NCBI GenBank assembly: GCA_022402525.1
Contig: JAKRSB010000021.1
Span: forward strand, 1 to 33,270
Direction of reading: 5' to 3'
DNA length: 33,270 nt
Origin: Thermosynechococcaceae cyanobacterium MS004
GTDB taxonomy: Bacteria > Cyanobacteriota > Cyanobacteriia > Thermosynechococcales > Thermosynechococcaceae
Shown here one piece after another: positions 1 to 29,860 of the stretch. The translations under genes and the position numbers were made by a program. Position 1 is the stretch's first letter, and every line of letters begins with the position of its first letter. The notes under the pieces were generated by a model. The model did not search any database. It was not told where the DNA came from and saw only the letters and a program-made list of their open reading frames with translations.

Positions 1-348
1 TATTGGCGCACATACCATTATTGAAAGGAGTCCTACAGAAAAGACTATCAATTTGCCAATTGTCGTTTAACCGGCAAATGTCCTCGTTAACACAATAAAT
101 TTCCGCTAGAGGGGGTGCCCCAAATGTTCACACTGAGGGCACCCAAGGATCCGTTATTGAGCTGTTGCCTTTGCTGACTTAGGCGATCGCCTACGCGGGG
201 TCTTGTCCAGCCCGCTGCCGTTGCCTGAAGTCTTTGTAGGGGAGTTAATAGGATGGTTGAGATAAATAGGGTTTTGTAATAGGTCTGGCTGTTTTTGGGT
301 ACGCTAAGCTTGCTGAATTGAATGCTGGATCCCCTATTTGGGTTTAAG
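1..348. other. Intergenic region upstream of the SWIM gene
   Basis: No gene is supported here. One plus-strand frame is open from the window edge to a TAA at 68-70 and could be the last 22 codons of a gene lying outside the window; I do not recognise the peptide. A perfect 8-bp inverted repeat, GGGTGCCC at 113-120 and GGGCACCC at 137-144, could form a hairpin with a 16-nt loop, but no T run follows it, so it is not a typical terminator. No clear promoter is visible. Confidence 0.4.
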
Positions 349-3347: not shown

Positions 3348-3402
3348 GTACTCGCTCCCGCAATGACTTTTTACTTACGGATTAATTAGGATTTTTTTTA
3401 AG

Positions 3403-4530: not shown

Positions 4531-4575
4531 CAGTACAAATTTTTGAAGGTCTTTAGGTAACAACCCCAATTCTGT

Positions 4576-6915: not shown

Positions 6916-8084
6916 CAGATTCAGAAAACCATCGTCGCTGGCGACTCATTCTAGGGAGTGCAGATAGTTCGGGGCCTGGAGGAACGGATCATGCTGGCAT
7001 CACCCTTGTAGGGGAGGATCTGAGTATGGATCAGGCATTAGCTGCGCTTTACAATACCGATGAAAAGCGAACGGGTGGCTTAGAGGGTTCTTCCCCACGG
7101 GTTGCCCGATGGCTAGGGGATATCCGTAAATACTTTCCCAGTTCCGTTGTGCGGATTATGCAGCAGGATGCATTAGAACGTCTAAACCTTCAACGGATGT
7201 TGCTAGAGCCAGAACTGCTAGAAGCCATTGAACCTGATGTCCATCTTGTGGCAAATCTACTGTCCTTGAGTCGGGTAATGCCCAGTAAGACGAAGGATAC
7301 AGCTCGACTAGTCGTGCAGCGAGTGGTTAACGAACTGTTGCAGAAACTGCAAAATCCTATGCAGCAGGCCGTCATGGGAAGTCTTAACCGTGCAATTCGT
7401 AACCGTAGACCACGCCATAATGAAATTGACTGGCATCGAACAATTCGAGCTAATTTGCGGCACTATCAGCCCCAATACCGCACGATTATTCCTGAAACAC
7501 GCATAGGATATGGACGCAAACGCTCTGCCCTGCGAGATATTGTGCTCTGCGTGGATCAAAGCGGATCGATGGCAACTTCAGTTGTGTATGCCAGTATTTT
7601 TGCAGCAGTGTTGGCTTCGCTCCCAGCGGTCAGTACAAAATTGGTGGTGTTTGATACGGTCATTGTCGATCTCACGGATCTGCTGCAAGATCCAGTCGAT
7701 GTATTGTTTGGCACTCAGCTAGGTGGTGGGACAGATATCAATCAAGCCCTGAGTTATTGCCAAGGGTTAATCCGCCAACCTCAAGAAACTATCCTAGTGC
7801 TTATTAGTGACCTTTATGAAGGCGGCAATGCGACAGAAATGCTTAAGCGCGCAGCAACATTAGTTAATTCTGGTGTTCAAGTGATTACTTTACTTGCGCT
7901 CAATGATGATGGTGCCCCCTGCTTTGATCATCACCATGCTGCTCAATTTGCGGCTTTAGGAATTCCCGTATTTGCCTGTACCCCTGATAAGTTTGCAGAC
8001 CTGATGGCAGCTGTGATTCGGCAACAGGACATTACTCAATGGGCAGCTAAGGAAGAGATTGTGACAGCTCGCCAAGAATCCTAA
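6912..8084 (+). CDS. von Willebrand factor A domain protein (YehP-like)
   Basis: The protein is 390 aa. The C-terminal half holds a VWA domain with a complete metal-ion-dependent adhesion site: D215-x-S217-x-S219 (DQSGS), a downstream GGGTDI threonine loop and an Asp in LISDLYEG. VWA proteins encoded next to MoxR ATPases usually present or hold the client protein for remodelling. The N-terminal ~200 residues are helical and basic around the NRRPRHNEI segment. The start overlaps the DUF5682 stop (ATGA). This is the last gene of the five-gene set; no obvious terminator follows. It corresponds to E. coli yehP. Confidence 0.85.
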   Translation: MTDSENHRRWRLILGSADSSGPGGTDHAGITLVGEDLSMDQALAALYNTDEKRTGGLEGSSPRVARWLGDIRKYFPSSVVRIMQQDALERLNLQRMLLEPELLEAIEPDVHLVANLLSLSRVMPSKTKDTARLVVQRVVNELLQKLQNPMQQAVMGSLNRAIRNRRPRHNEIDWHRTIRANLRHYQPQYRTIIPETRIGYGRKRSALRDIVLCVDQSGSMATSVVYASIFAAVLASLPAVSTKLVVFDTVIVDLTDLLQDPVDVLFGTQLGGGTDINQALSYCQGLIRQPQETILVLISDLYEGGNATEMLKRAATLVNSGVQVITLLALNDDGAPCFDHHHAAQFAALGIPVFACTPDKFADLMAAVIRQQDITQWAAKEEIVTARQES

Positions 8085-12743: not shown

Positions 12744-13826
12744 TTAGCTGACAATTTTAGGGGCAGACAACGCCACAATTTGGGCTTCGCCAAAAGCTAA
12801 ATCCAGCGGAAAGTTATGGGCATTTCGCTCGTGAATGACCTCAATGCCCAGGTTGGCGCGGTTTAGGACGTCAGCCCAGGTATTGATCACATTCCCTTGG
12901 CTGTCCACAATGGAATGGTTAAAATTGAAGCCATTCAGGTTGAAGGACATGGTGCTGATGCCCAGAGAGGCAAACCAAATTCCCACCACAGGCCAAGCGG
13001 CAAGTAAGAAATGGAGAGATCGTGAGTTATTAAAGCTGGCGTACTGAAAAATCAGACGACCAAAATAACCGTGAGCCGCCACAATGTTATAGGTTTCCTG
13101 TTCTTGACCAAACCTATATCCAGCATTGGCCGATTCGATCTCACTAGTTTCGCGGATTAAAGACGAGGTCACAAGAGATCCATGCATTGCAGAGAATAAC
13201 GCGCCGCCAAATACCCCAATGACGCCTAACATATGAAAGGGATGCATTAGCACGTTATGCTCTGCGGAAAACACAATCATGAAATTGAAAGTGCCGGAAA
13301 TACCTAGCATCAGGCCATCGGAAAAACTTCCCTGACCAATGGGATAAATCAGCAATACTGCCGTTGCTGCGGAGGCTGGCGCAGAAAAAGCCACCGCAAT
13401 CCAGGGACGCATCCCCAGGCGATAGCTCAACTCCCACTGTCGCCCCATATAGGCATAGATGGCAATCAAGAAATGAAACACAATCATCTGCCAAGGGCCA
13501 CCGTTGTAGAGCCACTCATCTAGACTGGCCGCATCCCAGATGGGGTAAAAATGTAGCCCGATGGCGTTGGAGGTGGGTACGACGGTTGCCGTGATGAGGT
13601 TGTTTCCGCCTAGCAATGACCCAGTGACGGCTTCACGAATGCCGTCGATATCTACGGGCGGGGCTGCGACAAAGGCTAAGACGAATACAATGGCTGCGAC
13701 GAGGGCGGTGGGGATGAGCAATACTCCAAACCAACCGATATAAATGCGATTCGAGGTGCTGGTAATCCAGTTGCAGAAACGATCCCAGAGATTAAGGCGA
13801 TCGCGCTGTTCGAGAAAGGTACTCAT
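12744..13826 (-). CDS. psbA: Photosystem II D1 protein, low-oxygen (D1') form
   Basis: The protein is 360 aa, the normal precursor length. Essential residues are present: H118, Y161, H190, H198, H215, H272, S264, and the manganese-cluster ligands D170, E189, H332, E333, H337, D342 and A344, followed by a 16-residue tail removed by CtpA. A80, L158 and A286 replace the usual G80, F158 and T286; these three changes define the micro-aerobically induced D1' class (Synechocystis PsbA1, Thermosynechococcus PsbA2, Anabaena PsbA0). Q130 is the form seen in low-light D1, and 172-173 read LM instead of MP. GGAG lies 12 nt before the ATG. The gene is divergent from the sulfide operon, has its own terminator, and shares promoter boxes with that operon. 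The protein should be functional in water oxidation. Confidence 0.97.
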
Positions 13827-14546: not shown

Positions 14547-15848
14547 ATGGCTCGGATTGTGGTCATTGGGGCTGGACTAGGGGGACTGCCTAGCGCCTAT
14601 GAGTTAAGGCACGTATTGCCCCGTGAGCATCAGGTTGTACTCATTTCTAATCAACCGACATTTACCTTTGTGCCGTCGCTGCCCTGGATCGCCTTGGGGT
14701 TAAAGACTCTGGATCAAATTCAGTTAGATTTAGCCACTATTGTGCCTCAGCAGGGCATTGAATTAATTCTGGATTCGGTTACGGCGATTGATCCGCAGCG
14801 GCGGCAGATTACCTTAAAAGATCAAATACTGGCCTATGACTATGCCGTAATTGCCACGGGGCCAGAACTGGCACTGGATGCGCTGCCGGGACTCGGACCA
14901 GAAGGTGGCTACACTCAATCGATCTGCAATCCGCACCATGCAGTGTTGGCGGGGGAAGCTTGGCAGAAATTTTTAGCAGATCCGGGGCCAATTGTGGTGG
15001 GTGCCGCGCCGGGGGCAAGCTGTTTTGGCCCTGCCTATGAGTTTGCCTTTTTAATCCATCACGTTTTGAAACAGAAGGGACTGCGCGCTCAAGTCCCCAT
15101 CACCTTCATTACTTCCGAACCCTATGCCGGACATTTGGGCATTGGCGGCATGGCAGACTCCCGCTGGCTGATGCGTAAGTTTATGGCGAGTCGGGAAATT
15201 GAGCTGATGGAAAATACTGCCATTGCTCGGTTTGAACCAGATGCGGTTCACCTTGCTGATGGGCGCACCATTCCGGCAAAGTTTGTGATGGTCTTGCCGC
15301 CCTTTCGGGGGCCGCGCTTCTTGCGCGAAGCGCCAGGGTTAACCGATGCCAAGGGGTTTATGCCCGTATTGCCCACCTATCGTCACCCTGATTTTGAGTC
15401 CATTTATTCTGTGGGGGTGATTACACAGCTTAAGGCTGTGGAAGAAACTCCTATCCCGACGGGTGCGCCCAAGGTGGGGTTGATGACCGAAGAAATGGCG
15501 CTTTCTGTGGCTCATAATATTGCGCTTGAGTTAGGGGTTATTTCTGGCGCACAGCTTAAGCCCACCCTACAGGCCATTTGCTTTGCGGATTTTGGCAATA
15601 CGGGTGCGCTGTTTTTAGCCGATCCATTGCTGCCGGATGCAGAAGGACATCGCCACCGCGCCCTGACCTTTCACGGGCCGTGGGTGTCTTGGATGAAGCT
15701 AGGGTTTGAGCAATATTTTCTATTGAAAATGCGGATGGGCTGGACGATTCCTTGGTTTGAGCGCTGGGGCTTTCGGGCGATTGGGTTGCCTTTGGTGGAG
15801 AGGGTTCAGCCAGAGTCCAGTCTGGATCTTTCACCTCCCATAGTCTGA
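14547..15848 (+). CDS. sqr: Type I sulfide:quinone oxidoreductase
   Basis: The protein is 433 aa. The Rossmann FAD site VVIGAGLGGLPSAYEL starts at residue 5. The three catalytic cysteines of SQR are at C127 (QSIC), C159 (GASCFGPAYEF) and C345 (AICFADFG), matching the layout of the A. ferrooxidans enzyme, along with GHLGIGG and PTGAPK-G-M motifs. SQR oxidises sulfide to sulfane sulfur or polysulfide and passes electrons to the quinone pool. The C-terminal region (SWMKLGFEQYFLLKMRMG) is the amphipathic membrane-anchoring part. AGGGG precedes the ATG. A DUF2892 gene precedes it and an ArsR regulator follows after 43 bp, the usual arrangement of sulfide-induced sqr operons in cyanobacteria. Confidence 0.95.
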   Translation: MARIVVIGAGLGGLPSAYELRHVLPREHQVVLISNQPTFTFVPSLPWIALGLKTLDQIQLDLATIVPQQGIELILDSVTAIDPQRRQITLKDQILAYDYAVIATGPELALDALPGLGPEGGYTQSICNPHHAVLAGEAWQKFLADPGPIVVGAAPGASCFGPAYEFAFLIHHVLKQKGLRAQVPITFITSEPYAGHLGIGGMADSRWLMRKFMASREIELMENTAIARFEPDAVHLADGRTIPAKFVMVLPPFRGPRFLREAPGLTDAKGFMPVLPTYRHPDFESIYSVGVITQLKAVEETPIPTGAPKVGLMTEEMALSVAHNIALELGVISGAQLKPTLQAICFADFGNTGALFLADPLLPDAEGHRHRALTFHGPWVSWMKLGFEQYFLLKMRMGWTIPWFERWGFRAIGLPLVERVQPESSLDLSPPIV

Positions 15849-15891: not shown

Positions 15892-16194
15892 ATGGAAATT
15901 GTGGTCAGTCCAGCGGAACTAGAGGCGCTTGCCAACCGATTTAAGGCGTTGGCAGAACCCACACGGCTTCACATCCTTGCGGCAATCTGTGACCAGGAAC
16001 GCAATGTGCAGGATATCTGCGATCGCACGGGTCTCCACCAAGCCAATGTCTCGAAGCATTTGCGATTGATGAAGGAGGCTGGGGTGTTGGCCTGCCGTCG
16101 AGAAGGGTCATGGCGCTACTACCGCGTGATTGATACCGAACTGCTGTCGCTCTGCCCCCATATTCATCCTGGCGCTCTGGGAAAAAAGGCGTAA
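15892..16194 (+). CDS. ArsR-family (SqrR-like) thiol-sensing repressor
   Basis: The protein is 100 aa with a complete ArsR winged helix: LAEPTRLHIL, then TGLHQANVSKHLRLMKEAG and the wing REGSWRYYRV. The arsenic-binding CxC of helix 3 is absent; those positions are N38 and Q40. Four cysteines remain (C33, C43, C68, C88). C33 or C43 with C88 could form the sulfide or persulfide switch known from SqrR/BigR, which uses one cysteine before the DNA-binding helices and one in the last helix. It sits just after sqr and probably represses its own operon, and perhaps psbA. The pairing of cysteines is inference. Confidence 0.88.
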   Translation: MEIVVSPAELEALANRFKALAEPTRLHILAAICDQERNVQDICDRTGLHQANVSKHLRLMKEAGVLACRREGSWRYYRVIDTELLSLCPHIHPGALGKKA

Positions 16195-16243
16195 CGCTTT
16201 ATTGCTGTTTGATTTTTCTAGATTTAATACAGATTTAAAAAAC

Positions 16244-16846
16244 ATGTTGAAACTTTTTTATCAGATATTGATTGGGTTGATGGCGATCGCGCTCTGGTTG
16301 ATGCCCCAGTCCGTCTGGGCTGCGACGGATTCTACCGAATTAGCAAAAGCAGTTCAGGCCATTGAAAGTCTGGATCAAATGCGCTCCGAGCTAGCCTCAA
16401 CCCTAGAAGGGCAAAGCGAGGAGCCGACTCAACAAACGATGAAAGAAGTCTGTCGCCCCGTCGGGATGCAGGCGATAAAGCTGAGCCAGGAAAATGGCTG
16501 GCAGGTGAAGCAAATTGCCAGCAAGTATCGCAATCCTGACCACGGCCCCGATAATCTTCATTCCAGACTAGCCCTGGCAACCTTTGAGAAAACCCCTGAA
16601 CTGATGGGCTTTTGGGATCGTGAAACCATCAATGGGCAATCGGGCAATCGCTATTACCGCCGCATCAATGTAGAAGCCAGTTGTTTAGCTTGCCACGGCG
16701 GCAAGTCGAGTCGCCCTCAGTTTGTGAGAGAGAACTATCCCCAGGATCTTGCCTATGACTTCAATATTGGCGATCTGCGAGGGATGTATGCCGTGTTTAT
16801 GCCCGATCTCCAGCAAGCGCTGGAAACCCCAGCCCACAACTCATAG
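16244..16846 (+). CDS. DUF3365 (Tll0287-like) c-type heme protein
   Basis: The protein is 200 aa from the ATG at 16244; the open frame extends further upstream, but that would bury the signal peptide. Residues 1-26 are a signal peptide (hydrophobic core ILIGLMAIALWLM, cleavage after VWA). The heme-attachment motif C147-L-A-C150-H151 is near the C-terminus, with another cysteine in KEVCRPVG. Family members such as Tll0287 are PAS-like, exported c-type heme proteins suspected of redox or gas sensing. The mature protein would be periplasmic or lumenal. It lies 49 bp after the ArsR gene and 9 bp before the DUF3122 gene, so it belongs to the sulfide operon. Confidence 0.85.
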   Translation: MLKLFYQILIGLMAIALWLMPQSVWAATDSTELAKAVQAIESLDQMRSELASTLEGQSEEPTQQTMKEVCRPVGMQAIKLSQENGWQVKQIASKYRNPDHGPDNLHSRLALATFEKTPELMGFWDRETINGQSGNRYYRRINVEASCLACHGGKSSRPQFVRENYPQDLAYDFNIGDLRGMYAVFMPDLQQALETPAHNS

Positions 16847-16855
16847 AGAAGAATC

Positions 16856-17395
16856 ATGATGGGATGTCGCATTCGCAAATTTTTTTCCTGGCTATTGATC
16901 TTGGGGGCGATCGCCTTAAGCATTGGACTGGGGTTAGGGATCTTGAATCCACCCAGAGCTGAAGCCGCAATCCGTCAGCTTGAAGAAGCGCCAGGGCAGA
17001 TGGTCTATCAATCTAGAGCCACCCTCAAGGATCAGCATGGGAGTGGCTGGCAGGCGATCGCCTTCAAACGGGTACGCCCAAATGGTCAAACCAGCATTGA
17101 GCTAAGGCTGGTGGGGTTTCCAGGGGTAGCGGTCTTGGATCGTTCCCAGCCATTGACCTTAACCAATGCTCTAGGCAAAACCCTGACGGCACCTGATGCG
17201 TCTAGCGCCATCTTTGGGGAAGCCAAACCGCCTGAACCGAATGTGGGTCAGTACGACCTATTGCCCGTGCTGTCTCAGCTCCAGGCAGAGGTTCCCTTAC
17301 AGTTAACGCTGCCAATTGTGGACAGCGAACCCATTACCCTTTCCGTATCGCCCTCGCTGCTTCAAGAATGGCAAATTCTTGCCCAGGATTCCTAG
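16856..17395 (+). CDS. DUF3122 family exported protein
   Basis: The protein is 179 aa with an N-terminal signal (LLILGAIALSIGLGLGI, then PPRAEAA). The family signature is visible after it: IRQLEEAPGQMVYQSRATL, WQAIAFKRV and LRLVGFPGV. DUF3122 is restricted to cyanobacteria and has no known activity. A second in-frame ATG three bases later is an equally possible start; AGAGAAGA upstream serves either. The 9-bp gap from the DUF3365 gene suggests the two extracytoplasmic proteins are made together and may work together. Confidence 0.8.
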   Translation: MMGCRIRKFFSWLLILGAIALSIGLGLGILNPPRAEAAIRQLEEAPGQMVYQSRATLKDQHGSGWQAIAFKRVRPNGQTSIELRLVGFPGVAVLDRSQPLTLTNALGKTLTAPDASSAIFGEAKPPEPNVGQYDLLPVLSQLQAEVPLQLTLPIVDSEPITLSVSPSLLQEWQILAQDS

Positions 17396-17863: not shown

Positions 17864-17903
17864 GTTGTCTCAAAATAACGCATTGAACGTGAGAGAAGAA
17901 TCC

Positions 17904-18245
17904 ATGACCTCTAAATCGACTGCTAAACCCGTGACAAACCCAATCTTACTCACTCCAACTCAATTCAAGGCTCGCCAGAAAGAATTTTTGGTGATTGACG
18001 TGCGGGGCTGGTTGGAATACTGGATGGCGCATATTCCAGGGGCAAAACGACTCAGCCGCGATCTCATTCTTAAAACAGTTTCCAAAGATCAGGCGATCGC
18101 CCTGACTTGTTTGTCGGGTCATCGTAGCGCAATGGCGGCGCAGTGGCTTGTGGGACAGGGCTATGGCAAGGTTCATAACCTGAAGGGCGGTCTGTTGAGC
18201 TGGCAAAATGCAGGCTACGCGGTTCAGCGAGGCAATCGTCCCTAA
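17904..18245 (+). CDS. Single-domain rhodanese
   Basis: The protein is 113 aa from the ATG at 17904, preceded by GAGAAGAA; upstream in-frame TTG and GTG codons are possible but lack good sites. It is a single rhodanese domain with the persulfide-carrying cysteine C69 in CLSGHRS, preceded by VIDVRGWLEYWMAHIPGA and followed by GLLSWQNAGY. Rhodaneses transfer sulfane sulfur, here most likely the product of SQR, to thiols or other acceptors. No signal peptide is present, so it acts in the cytoplasm. Confidence 0.9.
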   Translation: MTSKSTAKPVTNPILLTPTQFKARQKEFLVIDVRGWLEYWMAHIPGAKRLSRDLILKTVSKDQAIALTCLSGHRSAMAAQWLVGQGYGKVHNLKGGLLSWQNAGYAVQRGNRP

Positions 18246-18307: not shown

Positions 18308-19690
18308 ATGCAAACCAACCCCTATCAGCTCCCAACGCTGCCGCCACTACGATCTAAGGTAGGTCTTGGATTATTGGGCGCGATTGCCCTCAGTGGGGTA
18401 GGCCTATTTTGGATAGTGCGCTCCACAATGGCTCCCTCGCCACCGCCAGCGGTTGTAAAAATTCAGCCCCTTGTCGTTAAAACAGAGGTGGTTACGACCA
18501 ACGCCGTGGCTGGCACCCAGACCCTCACGGGCACGGTAGAACCGCTGGAATCAGTGACGGTGACGAGTCGGGTGATGGGGTTAATTGCCCGTTTGCCTGT
18601 GCAAGAAGGCGATCGCGTCCGGGCCGGACAGGTGGTGGCCGTCATTGATGTCAAAGATATCCAGGCCCAGCGCGACCAGAGCATCGCCTCCATTTACCAG
18701 GCCCAAGCGGGGGTCACTGGTGCCCAGGCCACCCAAACCCAGGCGATCGCCAGTGTCGCCCAATCTAATGCCCAGCGCGCCCAAGCCGAGGCGCGTCAAC
18801 AAGAAGCGCAGGCGCAGCAACAAGAGGCTGAGGCGGATCTGGCCAATGCCTTGCTCAACCAACAGCGCATGGCGAAACTGCGGCAGGCAGGGGCTGTGAG
18901 TCAAGTTCAGCTCGATGATGCCAATACACGGGTGGCCTTGATTCAAGCCCAGATTCAGCGAGCCAAGGCAGGGGTCAATCAGGCCAGACGCGGCATCGAA
19001 CAGGCTCAAGCCATCATTGACCAGTCCCAAGCGCAAATCCGGCAGGCCAATGCCAGCGTCACCCAGGCTCAGGCGCAAGTCCGTCAAGCGCAAGCCTCTC
19101 AAGAGCAGGCGATCGCCAACTTAGACTACGGTACGGTCACTGCCCCTTTTGATGCGGTCGTCACCCGTAGGCATACCGAAGTTGGGGCAATGGCAGGGAT
19201 GGGACAGCAGCTTCTGACCCTAGAAAGCGTGGATCGCTTACGGCTGAGTGTCGGTGTCCCAGAATCGGCGATCGCCCAGGTGCAAATAGGCCAGCGGGTG
19301 AGGGTGCGTTTTGATGCCCTCCAGCGCACCCTCACCGGACGATTAAGCCAGATCATTCCCTCCGCCGACCCCATCTCCCGCAACTTTAGGGTCAAAATTT
19401 CGCTCCCTGCCGGCCCAGGGGTAATGCCTGGTATGTTTGGGCGACTAGAACTGAATGCTGCCCAACGCAGCACCCTTCAGATTCCCCAAAGTGCCATCGT
19501 CGAGCGAACCGGCGTTAAGGGGATCTTTCAGGTGCAGGGAGATCACGCCGTCTTTCATCCTGTCACCTTGGGCAAGCCCCAGGGGGAACGAGTGGAGGTG
19601 TTTGCAGGGGTGAAACAGGGGAGCCGCATCATTCTCAACCCGCCCGCCAACCTTACGGAACATACGCCCCTGCGCCTTGGGCCAGCCTAA
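18308..19690 (+). CDS. RND efflux periplasmic adaptor (HlyD/AcrA type)
   Basis: The protein is 460 aa. One membrane anchor lies at residues ~19-38 (GLGLLGAIALSGVGLFWIV), with no lipobox. It is followed by a lipoyl-like half-motif (VTVTSRVMGLIARLPVQEGD then RVRAGQVVAVID), a long Ala/Gln-rich coiled-coil hairpin (~115-265), the returning lipoyl half (YGTVTAPFDAVVTRR) and beta-barrel and membrane-proximal domains. It bridges the RND pump encoded next to an outer-membrane channel; no TolC-like gene is in this window. The coiled coil is made of repeated QAQA-type runs. Confidence 0.9.
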   Translation: MQTNPYQLPTLPPLRSKVGLGLLGAIALSGVGLFWIVRSTMAPSPPPAVVKIQPLVVKTEVVTTNAVAGTQTLTGTVEPLESVTVTSRVMGLIARLPVQEGDRVRAGQVVAVIDVKDIQAQRDQSIASIYQAQAGVTGAQATQTQAIASVAQSNAQRAQAEARQQEAQAQQQEAEADLANALLNQQRMAKLRQAGAVSQVQLDDANTRVALIQAQIQRAKAGVNQARRGIEQAQAIIDQSQAQIRQANASVTQAQAQVRQAQASQEQAIANLDYGTVTAPFDAVVTRRHTEVGAMAGMGQQLLTLESVDRLRLSVGVPESAIAQVQIGQRVRVRFDALQRTLTGRLSQIIPSADPISRNFRVKISLPAGPGVMPGMFGRLELNAAQRSTLQIPQSAIVERTGVKGIFQVQGDHAVFHPVTLGKPQGERVEVFAGVKQGSRIILNPPANLTEHTPLRLGPA

Positions 19691-19726
19691 TCAATCTACC
19701 GACCCACCCTATCCCTCTTGAGTCCC

Positions 19727-22700
19727 ATGCCAGTCGATCCTGCTCCCCTCGCTGAATCCGTTTCTCCCCCGCAGCGCAATCTGGTAGGGAGGATTACGGC
19801 CTACTTCATTAACTCTCAACTCACCGTGCTGCTGATTGTTGTGCTGGTGCTGTTTGGGGTTGGAGCCGTCCTGTTAACCCCCAAGGAAGAAAATCCTCAG
19901 ATTGTCGTACCGGCGGCGGATGTGCTGTTGTCCTATCCAGGTGCTTCGGCAGAAGTGGTGGAGCAAACTTTAACCATTCCCATCGAAGCCAAGCTTCGAG
20001 AGCTGAATGGAGTGGAACATATCTATTCCGCGTCCCAAAATTCTGGCGCAAAAGTCACGGTGCAGTTTTTTGTGGGTGAGAACTGGGAAAATTCGCTCTT
20101 TCGGCTCCAAAATCATCTCTACAACCATCAAGACCTGCTGCCGCCAGGGGCAAGCTATGGGGTCAAACCTATCATCATTGATGATGTTCCGATTGTTACG
20201 CTGACCGTGACGGGCAAAAACTATAGCGACAACCAGCTCCGCCGCATTGGAGAACGCTTACTCGAAGACCTCCGCAGCATTCCCAATACCGCTAATTTGA
20301 CCTTGACAGGGGGGCAGCCCCGCACCCTTCGCGTCGATTTAGACCCTGATCGACTGGCTAGCTACCGCCTGTCCCCTGCTGAAATTACCCAACGCCTTCA
20401 AGGAGAAAATGTTCAGCTTCCGGCGGGAGATGTATTACTCGGTGACACGCGCCTATTTTTACAGGGGGGTAGTCTGTTCCAATCTGCGCAGGATGTGGAG
20501 GGGATTATCGTTGGGTTTGGTCAATCTACTCCGGCCAATGGGGGGGGCACGGCGACCTCTCCTATCTATTTGCGAGATGTAGCTTCTGTGGTGGATGAGT
20601 TTGGCGATCGCCTTACGGAGTCCCGCATTAGCTTCCGACAGGATTGGGATGTAACGGCACCCTATCCTGCCCCCAGCAGTACGGCGATGGAGGAATTTGT
20701 AACCCAACCTGCTATTACGATTGGCATTGCCAAACAAAAGGGCACCAATGCCGTCACAGTCGCCCAAAGTATCTTTCGTCGCCTAGAAGAACTCAAGCCC
20801 CAGCTCCCACCAGGGGTTGAGGTGGCCGTGACGCGGAACGATGGTCAGACCGCCGCACGAGCAGTGGGTGACCTCTACCAAAGTTTGGGCATTGCCATCG
20901 TGACGGTGGTGGCGCTATTGGTGCTATTTCTAGGTTGGCGAGAAGCTTCCATTGTCGCCTTTGTAATTCCCCTTACGCTGGCAGGAACGCTGGCGGTGGG
21001 CTGGGTGTCGGGGCAAACGATTAACCGGATCACCCTCTTTGCGCTGATTTTAGCCCTCGGCACCTTGGTTGATGATGCGATCGCCATTACCGAAAATATT
21101 CATCGCTACTTTGAAGAAAATCCTGGGATGACCTGGCCTCAAAAACTAGAGGCTGCTACTAGCGCAGTTGCCGAACTAGGAAGCCCCGTGATTCTCTCGA
21201 CCATTACCGTGATTTTGGCCTTTTTACCGATGGCTTTTGTCACCGGCATGATGGGGCCGTACATGGGGCCGATTCCGTTTAACATGCCCGTCGCCATGAT
21301 TATTAGTACCACTTTGGCCCTGACCATCACCCCATTTTTAGCCGTGAGGCTCATTAAACTCAAACCTCATGGGACGGTACTCCCCCTTGAGCAAACCCGT
21401 ACCTATCGGGGCTATCGTTGGCTGATGGAACCACTCCTAGAGTCTGCCCGCCGTCGCCGCTTTGTTCTGTGGGTCATTGTGGGATTGATGCTGGCGAGTT
21501 TCTTGCTGCCGCTGACCCAATCTGTAAAGTTTCGGATGTTGCCCAAGGCCAACAAAGATACATTTCTGGTACAGGTGGATCTTCCCCTGGGCACCAACCT
21601 TAGCCAAAGCAATCGGGTGGTGGGTGAATTGGAGGCGATTCTGCGCCAAACCCCTGAAATTACCAACTTTGAAACCTATGTAGGCACTGGCGCACCCATT
21701 GATTTTAATGGGATGCTGCGCGGCGCAACGGATCGCGGCAACCAGCATTTTGCTGATATTCGCGTCCATTTAACCAACAAAGATGCGCGTGGGAAGAGTT
21801 CAGAAGCCATCGTCTTTGAGCTACGGCCCAAACTATCCCAGCAGGCCAGCCAGCATCAGGCGATCGTCAAACTTGTGGAAGATCCCCCTGGCCCTCCGGT
21901 GCGCTCTACAATGCTGGCGGAGATTTATGGGCCAGACTACCCCACCCAGCGTCAATTGGCTAAACAGGTACGTCAGGTCTTTGCCGAGACGGCTCAGGTC
22001 GTGGATATTGATGATTCGGTCAAAAACCAAATCCCCCAGATGCGTTTAGTAGTGGACCGCGATAAGGTGAGTCGGGCGGGCCTGAGTACCCAGGAGATTA
22101 CCCAGACGATTCAAATGGCGATCGCTGGAGCCAAGGTGAGTACACTCCAGGTGCCCGGAGAACTTGCCCCCGTTGCCATTCAGGTTCGCTTTGCGGATGC
22201 TAACCGCCAAAGCCTCAACGACCTTACCCGTATCCAAATTCCCACCGCCAGCAAAACCCTGGTGCCCCTCTCCGAGCTGGTGACTTTTGAGTCCACTACG
22301 GTAGATGAACCCATTCTGCATAAAGACCAGCGTCCTGTCACCTACGTTATGGGTGAAATGGGCGATCGCTCTTCGGTCTATGCAGTCATGGAGCAGCTCG
22401 TTTACTTTATTCGCCATCCCTTACCTAAGGGATACACCATCAATTGGGACGGAGAATGGAAGCTCACCCTAGACGTATTCAGGGATCTGGGGTTAGCGAT
22501 GCTCGTCGCGGTGCTGCTGATTTATCTCATTTTGGTCGGACAATTTCGCAGCTTCAAAGTGCCACTCATTATGCTGGGCAGCATCCCCTTAGCACTTATT
22601 GGAATTTTAATTGGCTTTTCCCTCAATGGGGTTTACTTCAGCGCCACTGCCATGATTGGCGTCATCGCCTTAGCGGGGATTGTCGTGCGGAATGCGATCG

Positions 22701-23005
22701 TGTTGCTAGAGTTTGTGGGCGATCAGGTACGGGCTGGAGTTGACCTAAAGCGAGCAATTCTGGAAGCCGGAGCCGTCAGATTTCGACCCATTTTACTCAC
22801 CAGCGTCACTACAATGCTCGGTACATTATCAATTTTGAGTGATCCGGTCTGGTCAGGGCTTGCCTGGACGCTGCTGTGCGGGATGTTGGCCTCTTCGGTC
22901 TTGACGTTGGTGGTCATTCCACTCATGTACTACGGCGATCAGCATCGTCAGTCGATCCCTTCCCCACAGCCTACCCCCACCCATGCATCTCCGCTGCCTG
23001 GTTGA
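19727..23005 (+). CDS. RND efflux transporter permease (AcrB type)
   Basis: The protein is 1092 aa from the ATG at 19727, about the usual length for the HAE/AcrB class, with a 12-helix layout and two large periplasmic loops. The proton-relay Asp pair is kept in TM4 (D449-D450 in GTLVDDAIAITEN). At the TM10 lysine of AcrB there is R988 in GIVVRNAIVLLEF. It should export small toxic compounds by proton antiport with the adaptor encoded 36 bp upstream. Its substrate is unknown; placement in a sulfide operon suggests sulfur-derived or metal-sulfide stress products (inference). Confidence 0.92.
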   Translation: MPVDPAPLAESVSPPQRNLVGRITAYFINSQLTVLLIVVLVLFGVGAVLLTPKEENPQIVVPAADVLLSYPGASAEVVEQTLTIPIEAKLRELNGVEHIYSASQNSGAKVTVQFFVGENWENSLFRLQNHLYNHQDLLPPGASYGVKPIIIDDVPIVTLTVTGKNYSDNQLRRIGERLLEDLRSIPNTANLTLTGGQPRTLRVDLDPDRLASYRLSPAEITQRLQGENVQLPAGDVLLGDTRLFLQGGSLFQSAQDVEGIIVGFGQSTPANGGGTATSPIYLRDVASVVDEFGDRLTESRISFRQDWDVTAPYPAPSSTAMEEFVTQPAITIGIAKQKGTNAVTVAQSIFRRLEELKPQLPPGVEVAVTRNDGQTAARAVGDLYQSLGIAIVTVVALLVLFLGWREASIVAFVIPLTLAGTLAVGWVSGQTINRITLFALILALGTLVDDAIAITENIHRYFEENPGMTWPQKLEAATSAVAELGSPVILSTITVILAFLPMAFVTGMMGPYMGPIPFNMPVAMIISTTLALTITPFLAVRLIKLKPHGTVLPLEQTRTYRGYRWLMEPLLESARRRRFVLWVIVGLMLASFLLPLTQSVKFRMLPKANKDTFLVQVDLPLGTNLSQSNRVVGELEAILRQTPEITNFETYVGTGAPIDFNGMLRGATDRGNQHFADIRVHLTNKDARGKSSEAIVFELRPKLSQQASQHQAIVKLVEDPPGPPVRSTMLAEIYGPDYPTQRQLAKQVRQVFAETAQVVDIDDSVKNQIPQMRLVVDRDKVSRAGLSTQEITQTIQMAIAGAKVSTLQVPGELAPVAIQVRFADANRQSLNDLTRIQIPTASKTLVPLSELVTFESTTVDEPILHKDQRPVTYVMGEMGDRSSVYAVMEQLVYFIRHPLPKGYTINWDGEWKLTLDVFRDLGLAMLVAVLLIYLILVGQFRSFKVPLIMLGSIPLALIGILIGFSLNGVYFSATAMIGVIALAGIVVRNAIVLLEFVGDQVRAGVDLKRAILEAGAVRFRPILLTSVTTMLGTLSILSDPVWSGLAWTLLCGMLASSVLTLVVIPLMYYGDQHRQSIPSPQPTPTHASPLPG

Positions 23006-23080: not shown

Positions 23081-24523
23081 ATGGATTTTTTATCGAATAC
23101 CGTTGCACTGTCTCGAATGCAGTTTGCCCTGACCGCTATTTTTCATATGCTCTGGCCTGTCCTGACCACAGGCATGTCAATCTACTTGGTCATTGTGGAA
23201 GGGCTGTGGCTGAAAACCCGCAACCCAGATTACTACCGTCACGCCCGATTTTGGTCAAAGCTCTATGTCCTGAACTTTGGCATTGGCGTGGCCTCCGGTT
23301 TGCCGATGGAATTTCAATTTGGCACCAACTGGGCACCCTTTTCCGAAGCCGTAGGGGACTTCTTTGGCAGCATTCTCGGCTTTGAAGGCGCGATGGCCTT
23401 CATGCTAGAAGCTGGATTTCTGGGCATTATGCTCTTTGGCTGGGGACGGGTGCATCCGGTGATTCACTACCTCGCCACGATCATGGTGGCTTTTGGTGCC
23501 AATCTCTCTACCTTCTGGATTTTGGTCGCCAATTCCTGGCTGCAAACCCCATCGGGGGGCGAGATGGTCAACGGCAAGTTTATTGTCAGTGACTACTTCC
23601 AGGCCATCGGGAATCCGTTCATGCTCAAGAGCGTATCCCATATGTTTTTCGCCACCCTAGAAACCTCTTTATTTGTGATTGGCGGCATCAGCGCCTGGTA
23701 TATCCTCAACAACCGTCATCAAGCCTTTTTTAGCCAATCGCTCAAGATTGTCTTGGCAGCAGCGATCGCCGTAACCCCGCTGCAAATCTATATCGGGCAC
23801 CTGAGCGCCGAGCAGGTGGCGCAATACCAGCCCACCAAACTTGCGGCCATGGAAGCCAAATGGGACACCAGCCCCGCCGGACAGCCTGCCGACTGGAGCC
23901 TGTTGGCCTTACCCAATGAGGCTGAACAAAAAAACACCTTTGAAGTCACCATTCCCAACGGCTTGGGCTACGTGCTGAATTTCCAGAAAAACCTTAAAGA
24001 ACCCGTTCTGGGGCTAAAAGAATGGGCCCCAGGCGATCGCCCCCGCATGGTAGGACTCATTTACTATTCCTTCCGCATCATGAGCGGTATCGGCTTCTTT
24101 CTGGCTGGACTAATGCTCTGGAGCGTCTTGCAGTGGGTGCTGGGCAATCTCTCCCCAGAAAAGATTGAGAAACAACAGTGGCTGCTCCGCACCTGGATTT
24201 TTGCCGCACCCTTGGGCTATATCGCCGTTGAATCGGGCTGGATTGTGCGCTGTGTCGGTCGTCAGCCCTGGACGATGTACGGGCAAATCCGCACAGCAGA
24301 TGCGGCTTCCCATCTGCCAGCCAGCAATGTGCTGACTTCTCTGAGCCTGTTTGCGATTGTGTACTCTATTTTATTGGTTGCGACCCTATACTTTGGCAGT
24401 CGCATTATCCGCCACGGCCCTAACCTTGAGTTGCCGATTCCTGGACTCGATGACCAACCCGCCATGGAAACCGAACCCGCGACCTTTGTTCCTGATCAGC
24501 GCCCCGTAGAAGCACAGCAGTAG
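23081..24523 (+). CDS. cydA: Cytochrome bd quinol oxidase subunit I (CIO-like, short Q-loop)
   Basis: The protein is 480 aa, shorter than E. coli CydA (522), with the short Q-loop typical of cyanide-insensitive and cyanobacterial bd oxidases. Heme ligands are visible: H22 (FALTAIFH), H187 (SVSHMFFATLE) and M334 in SFRIMSG, with R332 nearby. The quinol-site K-L-A-A-M-E motif is present. With CydB it oxidises plastoquinol and reduces oxygen to water with high affinity and resists sulfide. It sits 75 bp after the RND gene and 9 bp before cydB. Confidence 0.95.
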   Translation: MDFLSNTVALSRMQFALTAIFHMLWPVLTTGMSIYLVIVEGLWLKTRNPDYYRHARFWSKLYVLNFGIGVASGLPMEFQFGTNWAPFSEAVGDFFGSILGFEGAMAFMLEAGFLGIMLFGWGRVHPVIHYLATIMVAFGANLSTFWILVANSWLQTPSGGEMVNGKFIVSDYFQAIGNPFMLKSVSHMFFATLETSLFVIGGISAWYILNNRHQAFFSQSLKIVLAAAIAVTPLQIYIGHLSAEQVAQYQPTKLAAMEAKWDTSPAGQPADWSLLALPNEAEQKNTFEVTIPNGLGYVLNFQKNLKEPVLGLKEWAPGDRPRMVGLIYYSFRIMSGIGFFLAGLMLWSVLQWVLGNLSPEKIEKQQWLLRTWIFAAPLGYIAVESGWIVRCVGRQPWTMYGQIRTADAASHLPASNVLTSLSLFAIVYSILLVATLYFGSRIIRHGPNLELPIPGLDDQPAMETEPATFVPDQRPVEAQQ

Positions 24524-24532
24524 GTCGAACCC

Positions 24533-25546
24533 ATGGAAGCTTTACGCTATTTTTTGCCTCAAGTTTGGTTTGTGATTCTGGCATTGTTTTTGTTTCTCTA
24601 CGTCATGCTCGATGGCTTTGACTTGGGGGTTGGCATTCTTTCGCTGACCAGTTCCGATGAAGACCGTCGCAGTCTGCTGATGACCAGTTTAGGAAATATT
24701 TGGGATGCCAATGAAACCTGGCTGGTGCTGATGGGAGGCGCTTTATTTGGTGCATTTCCTCTGGCTTACGGCACTATCTTGAGCGCCCTGTACATTCCCA
24801 TCTTCATGATGATTTTCGGGCTGATTTTTCGGGCCGTGGCCTTTGAGTTTCGAGAGCATTCCAATCGCAAAGCGTTTTGGAACTTTGCCTTTGGGGCGGG
24901 TAGCTTTATGGCAGCGCTCGGACAGGGCTTTGCGCTGGGCAGTGTGATTGAAGGCATTGCCGTGGATGAGGCTGGTCACTTCATTGGCTCCACATGGGAC
25001 TGGCTGGACTGGCGATCGCTTTTAGTCGCTCTTACCCTCATTCAGGGCTATGTCCTGATTGGTTCTACCTACCTAATTTTGAAAACCGAAGGAGAACTGC
25101 AAAAAACGCACTATCGCACCGCAAAGCTTGCTGCCGTTACCACTTTGATTGGAGCAGTTTTAATCACCATTGCGACGCCTGTTTTCTATGAAGCGGCGCG
25201 CACTCGGCTGTTTAGCCCTCCGCTGGTTTATGTTTTTGCCCTCATTCCGGTGCTGGGGTTAGGGCTAGTGTGGCTGCTGCTGCAAAGTCTCAATCGAGAG
25301 GAAGAAGTTACCCCGTTTATCTGGACGATTTTGATCTTTCTGCTCACCTTTATTGGGCTAGGGCTGATTGTGTTTCCCTACATTATCCCTACCCAAATCA
25401 CCATTTATCAGGCGGCTGCGGCTCCGAGTGCCCTGGTCTTTATGCTCACCTTTATTGGAGTTCTGATTCCCATTATGCTGTTCTACAACATCTATAACTA
25501 CGTGGTGTTTCGCGGCAAAGTGGTAGGAGAGGCGTATGGGGAATAA
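24533..25546 (+). CDS. cydB: Cytochrome bd quinol oxidase subunit II
   Basis: The protein is 337 aa with the conserved N-terminal segment LYVMLDGFDLGVGIL, the WDANETWLVLMGGALFGAFP motif and about eight to nine membrane helices, as expected for CydB. It pairs with CydA from the adjacent gene (9-bp gap) in the plasma or thylakoid membrane. No CydX-like small subunit is evident in the 45 bp that follow. Sulfide tolerance of bd oxidases fits its place in an operon with SQR. Confidence 0.95.
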   Translation: MEALRYFLPQVWFVILALFLFLYVMLDGFDLGVGILSLTSSDEDRRSLLMTSLGNIWDANETWLVLMGGALFGAFPLAYGTILSALYIPIFMMIFGLIFRAVAFEFREHSNRKAFWNFAFGAGSFMAALGQGFALGSVIEGIAVDEAGHFIGSTWDWLDWRSLLVALTLIQGYVLIGSTYLILKTEGELQKTHYRTAKLAAVTTLIGAVLITIATPVFYEAARTRLFSPPLVYVFALIPVLGLGLVWLLLQSLNREEEVTPFIWTILIFLLTFIGLGLIVFPYIIPTQITIYQAAAAPSALVFMLTFIGVLIPIMLFYNIYNYVVFRGKVVGEAYGE

Positions 25547-25591: not shown

Positions 25592-26185
25592 ATGTGGAAC
25601 GAGCGATACAGCCAACCGGGCTATGCCTTTGGCAAGCACCCTAACGATTTTCTAGTCGAAGTCATTGACCAAATTCCAAAGGGTCGGGTGCTTTGTTTGG
25701 CAGAGGGGGAAGGTCGAAATGCGGTGTACTTGGCTCAGCGAGGTTGTCAGGTTACGGCTGTGGACGCCTCGGCAGTGGGGTTGGCAAAGGCTCAGAATCT
25801 GGCCTTAGAGCGTTCTGTAACCATTGAAACGATCGCAGCAGATCTGGCGAAGTTTCAAATTCAGCCCAACGCCTGGGATGCAGTCATCTCTATTTTTTGC
25901 CATCTGCCGCCGCCCCTTCGCGCTCAGGTGCATCGACAGGTTGTGGCGGGGTTACGTCCGGGTGGCGTATTTGTGCTGGAAGCCTATACGCCCCGTCAGC
26001 TTGAATTTAAGACCGGAGGCCCACCCAGTGTTGAACTGATGATGGATCTCGCCACCCTTCAAAAAGAGCTAGAAGGACTGAAATTTAGCCACGCCATAGA
26101 ACGAGAGCGGAATATCCTGGAAGGGCAGTTCCATCAGGGACGTAGTGCAGTTGTCCAGGTGCTTGCGCTTAATCTGAAGCCATGA
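25592..26185 (+). CDS. Class I SAM-dependent methyltransferase (TehB-like)
   Basis: The protein is 197 aa. It begins WNERYSQPGYAFGKHPNDFL, a start shared with TehB-like methyltransferases. Motif I is LCLAEGEGRNAVYLA, the acidic ribose-binding residue follows in VTAVDAS, and the later GLRPGGVFVLEAYTPRQ segment is motif post-III. Family members methylate small toxic or thiol-like substrates, including tellurite and selenium species; a thiol or sulfide acceptor is plausible here (inference). Its stop overlaps the next start (ATGA). Confidence 0.85.
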   Translation: MWNERYSQPGYAFGKHPNDFLVEVIDQIPKGRVLCLAEGEGRNAVYLAQRGCQVTAVDASAVGLAKAQNLALERSVTIETIAADLAKFQIQPNAWDAVISIFCHLPPPLRAQVHRQVVAGLRPGGVFVLEAYTPRQLEFKTGGPPSVELMMDLATLQKELEGLKFSHAIERERNILEGQFHQGRSAVVQVLALNLKP

Positions 26186-28890
26186 ATGCCAAAACAAATC
26201 TCACCACAGCCGCTCAAACTCCAGCGGAGTTGACCTTTCCAAACCTGCCCTTACCGCTAATGTCGGATCTTTGTTCGGCTGTTGTGGAGGATGAAAAGGC
26301 TGTTGAAGATTATCAGAATTGGTTAAGTTTTCATCGCGTTTGGGGACAGTTGCCAACGGAGGCACTGCAAGCGATCGCCCAATCTTTCCTTCGTTTTCGC
26401 GTAGAACCCCAAACACTCATTTTTCAGGAGGGACAAACCCCTATCGGTTTGTATCTTCTCCAGTGGGGAACGGTGGAGATTTTTCGGCGATCGCCCATTG
26501 GTCAATCGCTGATTCGCTACCGGAATGCGGGGGATTTATTTGGCTATACCCTCGTTGCTAATGCCGTTGAAGGGGCGTACCAAACCAATGCGATCGCCCT
26601 GACCACTAGCGAAATCTGGTTTATCCCAAAAGCAGCATTTCAACACCTGATGGTTGAATACCCCTCCATTCAACCCGTAATTCAGTCTCTACTTTCTCAA
26701 GACCTCCATGAGTATATGGCCCGCATTACCTGGGAACAGATGCGGATTCAAGGGTTACAGTCCTACATTCAAACTATTCCCAGCGAGACCACGATTCTAG
26801 GCTGTAGTAAGGCCGCTCAAAAACTGACCGAGCAAATCCATCAGGCCACCACAAATCAGAACCCCGTCGTCTTTCAGGCACAAGCAGGTACAGGTAAAAC
26901 ATTTTTAGCTGGGTTAATCCATGTCCGTTCTGGACTGGCCTCTCAACCCTTCGCCGAACTGAACTGTGCCAATTTACCCCGTACCGAAGATGGTCGGCTG
27001 AACACCGATCCGCTGTTCGGTCGTATCGGACATCAGGCAGGCATTCTTGAACTGTTGGAGCGGGGAACCCTGCTACTGGTCAATGTGCAGGCATTGAGTG
27101 AGGGCGATCGCACTCGCATAATCCACTACCTCAAAACGGGACTGGTGCTGCCAAATCATGGGATTGTGAGTAAAACTGACCTGGCAACTGAACCGCCTAA
27201 ACCCATTCAATCTTGGGTGCGTCTGATTCTGGCATCGCCTAAAAAGCTAGATTTGCCTGAGATCAACGCTATTGTCATGAGACTTTTTCCACTCCCCCAA
27301 CGCAAAGAAGATATTTCAGAGTTTGCGCGCTATTTCTTAACGCGGTTTTGTCGAGAACAGAATCGCCCACGCCTGCAACTGGATCAATCCGATCTCCGCC
27401 GTCTCCTGAGCTACGACTACCCTGGTAACTTCACAGAACTAGCTGAAATTCTGCATCGAGCCGTCATTATGACCCCCCTAGGGCAAACGGTGATTTCAGA
27501 ACAAGCTCTATGGTCAGTGCAGTCAGCCCGAAACGCCTTTCGTCTGGACTTGCTCACCCATGTGCCTTGGTTGCGGCAAGCATTGCTGAGTCGTTGGTAT
27601 CCAAAGGGGATCTGGATTGTGATGATGGTATTTTTTGTGCCCGTCACCCTTGCCGGATTTCTAGGGCCGCAGGGACGAGAGAGCAGCGTGACGCTAAATC
27701 TCTTTTGGGCTTGGTGGTGGCCTGGTTATCTGTTTTTATTCGTCTTTGTGGGTCGCCTTTGGTGTGCGGTCTGTCCCTTTATGATCACAGCAGAGTGGAT
27801 TCGTCGTTTCTCCCTTTGGGTGTTTCCGCGCCGGCAGCTCACTTGGAATACCCAATGGCTCAATCGCTGGGGAGCCTGGGTGCTGTTTGGCGGATTTGTT
27901 GCCATTTATCTTTGGGAAAAGCTCTGGGATTTGCCCCACCATGCGGCGCTTTCGGCCTGGTTGCTTTTGACCATTACGGCGGGCGCGGTCATTTGTAGCC
28001 TGATATATGAGCGGCGGCTCTGGTGTCGCTATCTCTGTCCCATTGGTGGGATGAACGGCATGTTTGCCAAACTCTCCATCCTTGAATTGCGATCAACCCA
28101 ACAGGTGTGCGGGAGCCAGTGCAGTACCTTTGGCTGTTACAAAGGCAGTGGTGCAACCCCCGTTATCTTTGCCGATGCGCTACCCACAGAAGGACAGTCC
28201 ACGGGCGGCTGTCCGCTCTATTCTCACCCAGCGCAGTTGCAGGATAACCGAGACTGCGTATTGTGTATGACCTGCCTCAAAGCCTGTCCCCATCGCTCGG
28301 TGCAGTTAAACCTGCGTTTTCCAACCTCAGACTTACTGGACAATCATCGAGGGTTTGGGGCAGAAGTTGCGCTGTTGCTACTGCTGTTGGGTGGGGTATT
28401 TATGCACCATGCCCAACGAATTTTAGGCGCTTTAGGATTTCATGATATTCCCATTGATGCAGACCATTTACTGATCAGCACACCGAACGCCCTGGCACTG
28501 CTCAGCATTCCAGCCGTCTTGACGTATTTGACCCATGCGATCGCCCGTTTCCTGGATCCGCAGCAACCGGATTATCTCACCGTCATCTACGCCTACTTGC
28601 CCTTTACCCTAGCCGCCAATCTGGCTCATTATATCCCTGCCGCCATGACTGAAGCCGGACAGATTCTGCCCGTATTGGCAAGAACTCTAGGCTACAGCGG
28701 TGCAGGCTGGCCGACCCTCACCTGGAGTTTAGAGGTGGCCCAGTTTCTTCAGGGTGTGACGCTTCTGTCCGCCCTAGTGTTCAGCGTGTATCCGCTGCTG
28801 CGAATCACGCAACGCACTTGGGTGAGTAATCTTCCCCATCTCTTATTACTGAGCGGACTCACAGGAATGGGTTTCTGGCTCATGGCTTAA
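26182..28890 (+). CDS. CRP-type sensor / degenerate AAA+ / membrane 4Fe-4S ferredoxin fusion
   Basis: The protein is 902 aa with three parts. Residues ~54-180 form a cyclic-nucleotide-binding (CRP) fold. Residues ~200-440 are an AAA+ domain resembling sigma-54 activators: Walker A is intact (AQAGTGKTF), but the Walker B site reads LLLVNVQ with no Asp-Glu, and the GAFTGA loop is missing. From ~470 there are several membrane helices and NapH/NosR-like cysteine motifs: WCAVCP (~527), WCRYLCP (~615), CGSQC-STFGC (~644) and CVLCMTCLKACP (~694), followed by more helices. I infer a membrane electron-transfer protein with a cytoplasmic sensory module. The AAA+ part is unlikely to activate sigma-54, since cyanobacteria lack it. 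It is coupled to the methyltransferase by an ATGA overlap and lies 19 bp before the cysteine synthase gene. Confidence 0.85.
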   Translation: MNAKTNLTTAAQTPAELTFPNLPLPLMSDLCSAVVEDEKAVEDYQNWLSFHRVWGQLPTEALQAIAQSFLRFRVEPQTLIFQEGQTPIGLYLLQWGTVEIFRRSPIGQSLIRYRNAGDLFGYTLVANAVEGAYQTNAIALTTSEIWFIPKAAFQHLMVEYPSIQPVIQSLLSQDLHEYMARITWEQMRIQGLQSYIQTIPSETTILGCSKAAQKLTEQIHQATTNQNPVVFQAQAGTGKTFLAGLIHVRSGLASQPFAELNCANLPRTEDGRLNTDPLFGRIGHQAGILELLERGTLLLVNVQALSEGDRTRIIHYLKTGLVLPNHGIVSKTDLATEPPKPIQSWVRLILASPKKLDLPEINAIVMRLFPLPQRKEDISEFARYFLTRFCREQNRPRLQLDQSDLRRLLSYDYPGNFTELAEILHRAVIMTPLGQTVISEQALWSVQSARNAFRLDLLTHVPWLRQALLSRWYPKGIWIVMMVFFVPVTLAGFLGPQGRESSVTLNLFWAWWWPGYLFLFVFVGRLWCAVCPFMITAEWIRRFSLWVFPRRQLTWNTQWLNRWGAWVLFGGFVAIYLWEKLWDLPHHAALSAWLLLTITAGAVICSLIYERRLWCRYLCPIGGMNGMFAKLSILELRSTQQVCGSQCSTFGCYKGSGATPVIFADALPTEGQSTGGCPLYSHPAQLQDNRDCVLCMTCLKACPHRSVQLNLRFPTSDLLDNHRGFGAEVALLLLLLGGVFMHHAQRILGALGFHDIPIDADHLLISTPNALALLSIPAVLTYLTHAIARFLDPQQPDYLTVIYAYLPFTLAANLAHYIPAAMTEAGQILPVLARTLGYSGAGWPTLTWSLEVAQFLQGVTLLSALVFSVYPLLRITQRTWVSNLPHLLLLSGLTGMGFWLMA

Positions 28891-28909: not shown

Positions 28910-29860
28910 ATGAAAACTTACGCTAGCATTGCTGAAGTTATTGGTCATACACCGCTGGTGCAGCTCCAGCGACTGCCGCAGCAGTTTGGCTGTGTTGCCG
29001 AAATTGTGCTGAAGTTGGAGGGCATGAATCCGGCAAAATCTGTGAAAGATCGCATTGCCATCAGCATGATCATTGAGGCAGAGCGGATCGGACTGATTGA
29101 GCCTGGGCTTTCTACCATTGTGGAAGCAACTTCCGGCAACACCGGAATTGGGTTAGCCATGGTCTGTGCTGCTAAAGGCTATCGTCTGATTTTGACCATG
29201 CCCGAAAATATGAGCCACGAACGACAACTGATGGTGCAAGCCTACGGTGCAGAGGTCATCTTGACCTCTGCTGTCGCGGATATGCAGGGGGCGATCGCTC
29301 ATGCAAATCAGTTAGTCACCATGATTCCGAATGCCTTTTCCCCTCACCAGTTTAGTAACCCAGCCAATCCCAAAATTCATTTCGATACCACTGGTCCCGA
29401 AATTTGGCAGGATACCGACGGACAACTAGCCGCCTTAGTTGTGGGGGTAGGCACGGGGGGCACCCTGACCGGAGCCGGACGCTACTTAAAGCAGCAAAAC
29501 CCGATGCTCCAGATCGTTGCTGTTGAACCTGCCAAGAGTGCGGTACTGAGTGGGAAACCTGCGGGCGAACATAATTTACAGGGGATTGGCGCTGGATTTA
29601 TTCCCGATGTGCTGCGGGTGGATCTCATGGATGAAATTGTGAGGGTAACAGAAGCTGATGCTTACGATACAGGACGACGATTAGCACAGACTGAAGGTAT
29701 CCTTAGCGGTATTTCGACGGGTGCGGCAGTCTATGCAGGGTTACAGATTGGACAACGCTCCCAGTATGAAAATCAAAGAATCGTGATTATTCAGCCTAGC
29801 GCGGGAGAACGATATCTCAGCACCGCAATGTGGAAGGATGAAGCCACAGAAATTGTTTAA
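28910..29860 (+). CDS. cysK: Cysteine synthase (O-acetylserine sulfhydrylase)
   Basis: The protein is 316 aa, full length. The PLP lysine is K46 in the motif NPAKSVKDRI, and the substrate loop EATSGNTGIGLAM and the phosphate loop GVGTGGTLTGAG are intact, as is the C-terminal PSAGERYLST motif. It condenses O-acetylserine with sulfide to give cysteine. Housed at the end of a sulfide-oxidation operon, it would assimilate incoming sulfide and help lower its concentration. It follows the fusion gene by 19 bp; there is no cysE nearby. Confidence 0.93.
   Translation: MKTYASIAEVIGHTPLVQLQRLPQQFGCVAEIVLKLEGMNPAKSVKDRIAISMIIEAERIGLIEPGLSTIVEATSGNTGIGLAMVCAAKGYRLILTMPENMSHERQLMVQAYGAEVILTSAVADMQGAIAHANQLVTMIPNAFSPHQFSNPANPKIHFDTTGPEIWQDTDGQLAALVVGVGTGGTLTGAGRYLKQQNPMLQIVAVEPAKSAVLSGKPAGEHNLQGIGAGFIPDVLRVDLMDEIVRVTEADAYDTGRRLAQTEGILSGISTGAAVYAGLQIGQRSQYENQRIVIIQPSAGERYLSTAMWKDEATEIV

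Follow-up and report, generated by a model that had tools for sequence, protein, structure and literature searches.

NapH-type membrane iron–sulfur modules act in maturation in known systems. Electron transfer from quinols has been proposed or shown for NapH and for RdhC (PceC), the latter having first been taken for a transcriptional regulator and now being viewed as an electron carrier, and NosZ activity is lost in cysteine variants of NosR (PMC5928378). The Synechocystis low-oxygen cluster (psbA1, slr1182-slr1185) joins psbA1 to rhodanese and PetC genes (PMC5295598), and sqr lies with arsR in an operon (PMC4918915); in Synechococcus 7002, polysulfide induces cysK2, rhod, and tauE (PMC12466478). 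The islands described here share psbA, rhodanese, PetC, SQR, and ArsR with the low-oxygen cluster and the sqr-arsR operons, and contain in addition a fusion protein that goes unmentioned in the portions of those accounts consulted (PMC5295598, PMC4918915). Most sampled cyanobacterial genomes encode at least one member of its family, yet a literature search, with subscription journals mostly outside its range, found no published description of the fusion or its architecture.

In the window, by which we mean the whole 33,270-nt stretch analyzed, a single 902-aa frame (26182..28890, + strand) joins a CRP-like sensor, a degenerate AAA+ domain of the sigma-54-activator (bEBP) type, a NapH-like iron–sulfur membrane module, and extra C-terminal helices. 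The ORF begins with ATG and shares 4 bp with the stop region of an upstream SAM-dependent methyltransferase gene (25592..26185, +; Pfam). Four Pfam matches, each above its curated cut-off, mark the protein (cNMP_binding, residues 73-159; Sigma54_activat, 206-320; AAA_lid_14, 373-444; Fer4_5, 592-631), and the AlphaFold model of the whole chain has a mean pLDDT of 80 and a pTM of 0.53. Pfam and structure comparison thus agree with the initial annotation, which had read CRP, degenerate AAA+, and membrane Fe-S parts in one frame. An assembly or sequencing join of two genes, the concern raised there, is ruled out because most of the cyanobacterial genomes sampled encode full-length homologues built in the same way; the fusion is a genuine single protein, found cyanobacteria-wide. 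A viral origin is likewise ruled out, since no relatives were found in viral contigs and a viral structure library gave no significant match for the membrane module. The protein is a new combination made from known parts.

Of 195 genomes sampled from class Cyanobacteriia, 138 carry family homologues, mostly full-length fusions, and no protein with the fusion was found in those other classes of its phylum that were sampled. The best 80 matches of the genome scan, with 412 further matches below them, are all cyanobacterial. A tree of 56 members resolves two clades, each fully supported: the rarer clade A, to which the window's protein belongs (54-85% identity to it among the genome-scan matches listed), and the widespread clade B (~40% identity). 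Both are often carried by one genome, and the window's own genome holds one member of each. Clade A is taxonomically mixed, with Synechococcus SynAce01, for example, nested among Leptolyngbyaceae, a pattern that would fit horizontal transfer. At five loci (L030 on G035:C1, L084, L091, L100, and L102), the clade A gene lies in two or more frames, reflecting a frameshift, a true split, or a sequencing error.

The N-terminal part (residues 44-192; 26311..26757, +) is a CRP/FNR-type cyclic-nucleotide-binding fold that leads into a long helix, as in the CRP/FNR family (Pfam cNMP_binding, 1.6e-14; VIA Z ~17 against the cyclic-nucleotide domains of HCN and PKA-R). Unlike those sensors, the fusion has no helix-turn-helix (no Pfam match anywhere in the 902 residues), and the AAA+ domain follows the sensor fold directly. 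By sequence inspection, TNA or TQA stands where CRP has RSA, which we take to be its phosphate-binding motif; another residue takes the place of the Arg in the cyclic-phosphate site, and cAMP is therefore not the ligand to be expected. The sensor has been dropped in some lineages that retain the AAA and Fe-S parts, as in three relatives of 657-728 aa (L124, L127, and L128) that have no CRP-like domain.

The AAA+ domain and its lid (residues 193-445; 26758..27516, +) share the fold of the sigma-54 activators NifA, NtrC1, FleQ, and PspF (Z ~21-23; ~23 against FlrC/NtrC1), along with Walker A and R374 in a PLxxRK motif. In contrast to those activators, the fusion has no GAFTGA segment, no catalytic Glu, and no DNA-binding domain, and its genome has no sigma-54. 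The intact Walker A of the initial annotation is borne out (AGTGKT in the window's protein), as is the missing GAFTGA loop, which is absent from all 56 aligned homologues. Its statement that Walker B lacks Asp-Glu holds for the window's protein, where the position reads V300-N301, and for the Glu, which occurs in no member of either clade; the first Asp, however, is still found in 22 of the 42 clade A members. Walker A is kept only in clade A, as GxxGxGKT with T240 in 41 of 42 members, the Thr being always Asp in clade B. The absence of sigma-54, previously put forward for cyanobacteria as a group, was found in the protein's own genome and in 20 relatives (PF04552, with four positive controls detected). 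An active sigma-54 activator is therefore ruled out by the motif state together with the absent sigma factor. Homology to sigma-54 activators and CRP makes it easy to take the fusion for a transcription factor, yet the parts needed for such a role are missing. The degenerate ATPase is not decaying, since purifying selection acts on both the sensor and the AAA part (omega 0.04-0.27). Judged from its motifs, the clade A domain probably still binds ATP but does not hydrolyze it normally, and for that reason it would serve as a switch that responds to nucleotide and ligand, or as an oligomerization clamp. It is a clear example of a mechanochemical ATPase domain put to new use once its partner was lost. 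One 1121-aa relative (L123:342-3704, G053:C1) carries two tandem AAA domains between sensor and Fe-S module, the first copy having GEAGVGKVN at Walker A and LDH at Walker B.

The membrane module (residues 453-720; 27538..28341, +) contains 12 cysteines, all of them invariant across the 56 homologues of both clades. These make up the four motif groups noted earlier, for which exact spacings can now be given: CX2CP (528/531), CX3CP (615/619), the atypical cluster motif CX3CX4C with a distant CP (643/647/652...677), and the canonical cluster motif CX2CX2CX3CP (692-702). With NapH, NosR, and RdhC the module has in common its membrane helices, CX(2-3)CP motifs before two Cys groups able to hold 4Fe-4S clusters, a Fer4_5 match, and a weak NapH-family profile match (1e-8, below the cut-off). 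It differs from them in its first motif and its atypical third group, in some five further membrane helices, in having no Pfam match to the FMN-binding domain of NosR/RdhC, and in the CRP and AAA+ cytoplasmic domains fused in front of it. The extra helices (residues 721-902; 28342..28887, +), recognized from the model, carry the invariant residues H722, E728, H742, Y803, Y805, Y817, E824, and Q857. Modeled alone, the membrane module reaches a pTM of 0.81, with pLDDT below 50 in the Cys-rich stretch; Foldseek gave no PDB match at E <0.001 and VIA a best Z of 5.2, results that do not imply a novel fold. A second membrane protein in the same genome (L126:2-2440, - strand, G000:C32) has CX3CP-like motifs and a long helical C-terminal region, and is 28% identical to the fusion over the Fe-S part.

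Conservation is highest in this module: mean identity within clade A and to clade B is 82% and 60%, compared with 57% and 26% for the sensor and 62% and 33% for the AAA part, and its dN/dS is 0.03-0.10 in all nine pairs, the lowest of the parts in eight of them. It is always kept, even where the sensor is absent (657-728 aa) or the AAA domain is doubled (1121 aa). Because it is best conserved and survives these rearrangements, we suggest from the sequence comparisons that the Fe-S module is the working end of the protein and that the other domains control it. Our preferred reading, which we hold tentatively and at a little short of even confidence, is a gated NapH-like membrane electron-transfer protein with a CRP and AAA+ regulatory head, clade A being devoted to sulfide and low oxygen. 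Against a carrier stand the NapH/MauN profile score (TIGR02163, 34.8 bits vs. a curated cut-off of 213.05), the pairing of CX2CP with CX3CP in place of the two CX3CP motifs of the NapH/MauN type, and the lack of a similar solved structure. The main rival, possible although somewhat doubtful, is a membrane redox sensor through which no net electron flux passes: the Fe-S clusters would sense how reduced the quinone pool is, or the sulfide level, and the head would signal to a partner, possibly CysK or a regulator. Both cytoplasmic domains are indeed derived from regulators, clade A sits in sulfide and low-oxygen islands, and the spread of clade B through SQR-less genomes would fit a general redox-sensing role. 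However, the protein has no output domain (neither helix-turn-helix nor GAFTGA), several lineages do without its sensor domain but not without the Fe-S part, and for RdhC a similar regulator proposal gave way to the electron-carrier view (PMC5928378).

The operon setting claimed for the fusion is real, all listed genes from SQR (14547) to NUDIX (31447) lying on the + strand. An SQR-like flavoprotein (14547..15848; Pyr_redox_2, with SQR_III the best NCBIfam match, below its cut-off) is followed by an ArsR-type repressor (15892..16194; NF033788, 2.5e-25), a single-domain rhodanese (17865..18245; profile match), an HlyD-type membrane-fusion protein (18308..19690; Pfam), an RND-type exporter (19718..23005; ACR_tran, 2e-179), and cytochrome bd subunits I (23081..24523) and II (24533..25546; both Pfam). 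Cysteine synthase, cysK (28910..29860; TIGR01139, 424 bits), begins 19 bp downstream of the fusion gene, and its product shares 57% identity with the next copy that the genome encodes. Near the fusion, no gene for an electron acceptor or for a dedicated redox partner holds a fixed position. Also inside the island (16130-17395, +) are a Tll0287-like protein, presumably of a heme-binding family, and a DUF3122 protein, which recur in 11 and 10 clade A loci, respectively.

Across genomes, the constant partner of clade A is cysK, which the initial annotation had not named: it neighbors 42 of 69 clade A loci vs. 1 of 26 clade B loci, and in 35 of 62 testable clade A loci it lies immediately downstream, within 600 bp and on the same strand. 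Genes for rhodanese, SQR, NUDIX, PetC Rieske, Tll0287-like, and DUF3122 proteins recur near clade A, as do TauE, psbA, RND, and cydAB, and all of these are absent from clade B loci; hemN, heme oxygenase, and ArsR genes also recur in clade A islands. A single locus, L057, unites SQR, ArsR, cydAB, methyltransferase, fusion, and cysK genes. SQR is encoded by 22 of 24 clade A genomes vs. 44 of 171 without clade A (p=4.6e-10, with related genomes counted as independent and one fragment in the contaminated genome G056 left out), which upholds, together with the neighborhood link, the co-occurrence that the initial annotation had proposed to look for. This association is specific to clade A, because SQR occurs in just 32 of 114 clade-B-only genomes and 12 of 57 with neither clade. 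The sulfide link thus stands for clade A but does not extend to the entire architecture, since the clade B paralogue, which is widespread, has no sulfide genes nearby.

The corresponding check for cydAB failed. Of the 69 clade A loci, just 6 have it nearby, and cydA is no commoner in genomes with clade A (12 of 24) than in the others (76 of 171, related genomes again counted as independent), so that cydAB is ruled out as a specific partner; the membrane Fe-S electron carrier inferred at first survives as the most plausible output. The same counts bear on an assembly or maturation factor of the CcoG/NosR type, which would deliver electrons to, or reduce the metal centers of, sulfide-sensitive or low-oxygen enzymes such as cytochrome bd or alternative PSII or b6f subunits. 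The presence of cydAB, psbA, and Rieske PetC among clade A neighbors is in its favor, as are the maturation roles of NapH-type modules and the NosR variants cited above, but with cydA not enriched, and with the most constant neighbor, cysK, needing no such maturation, we regard this proposal as quite unlikely.

The contrast between clades also raises the prospect that the sulfide link is hitch-hiking, with one housekeeping function for the fusion across the two clades, and clade A a copy riding on a mobile low-oxygen island. Such a history would account for the same architecture recurring in clade B without sulfide genes, and for the mixed taxonomy of clade A. It nevertheless appears very unlikely, since clade A forms a single clade with full support and a Walker A state not shared by clade B, its neighbors recur in many families in differing orders, and redundancy of the clades is disfavored by genomes that often hold both.

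Returning to the gated electron-transfer protein, we propose that SQR loads the membrane quinone pool during sulfide oxidation and that the cytoplasmic head, with its CRP-type ligand domain and its AAA+ domain inherited from a sigma-54 activator, would control the passage of electrons between that pool and a cytoplasmic acceptor via the predicted Fe-S clusters, in a life with sulfide and low oxygen, while the partner CysK would convert free sulfide to cysteine. Cluster and ATP binding, quinol use, ligand gating and nucleotide switching, and the direction and partners of the flow all belong to this proposal. A bolder version strikes us as unlikely: in it, the sigma-54-activator ATPase of cyanobacteria has become a nucleotide-dependent gate for membrane electron transfer, and clade A, by partnering directly with a dedicated CysK, ties sulfide assimilation to the redox state of plastoquinone while sulfide is being oxidized. 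Clade A offers a concrete gene, testable by knock-out, for cyanobacterial photosynthesis under sulfide.

Two further features of the window lie outside the SQR-to-cysK island. A psbA (D1) gene beside it (12744-13826, -), which may encode a low-oxygen D1 variant, has counterparts near other clade A loci. At 322-8084 (+), genes for a SWIM protein, DUF5691, a MoxR-like AAA ATPase, DUF5682, and a CoxE-type VWA protein stand in a row, a five-gene set that resembles MoxR-VWA systems.
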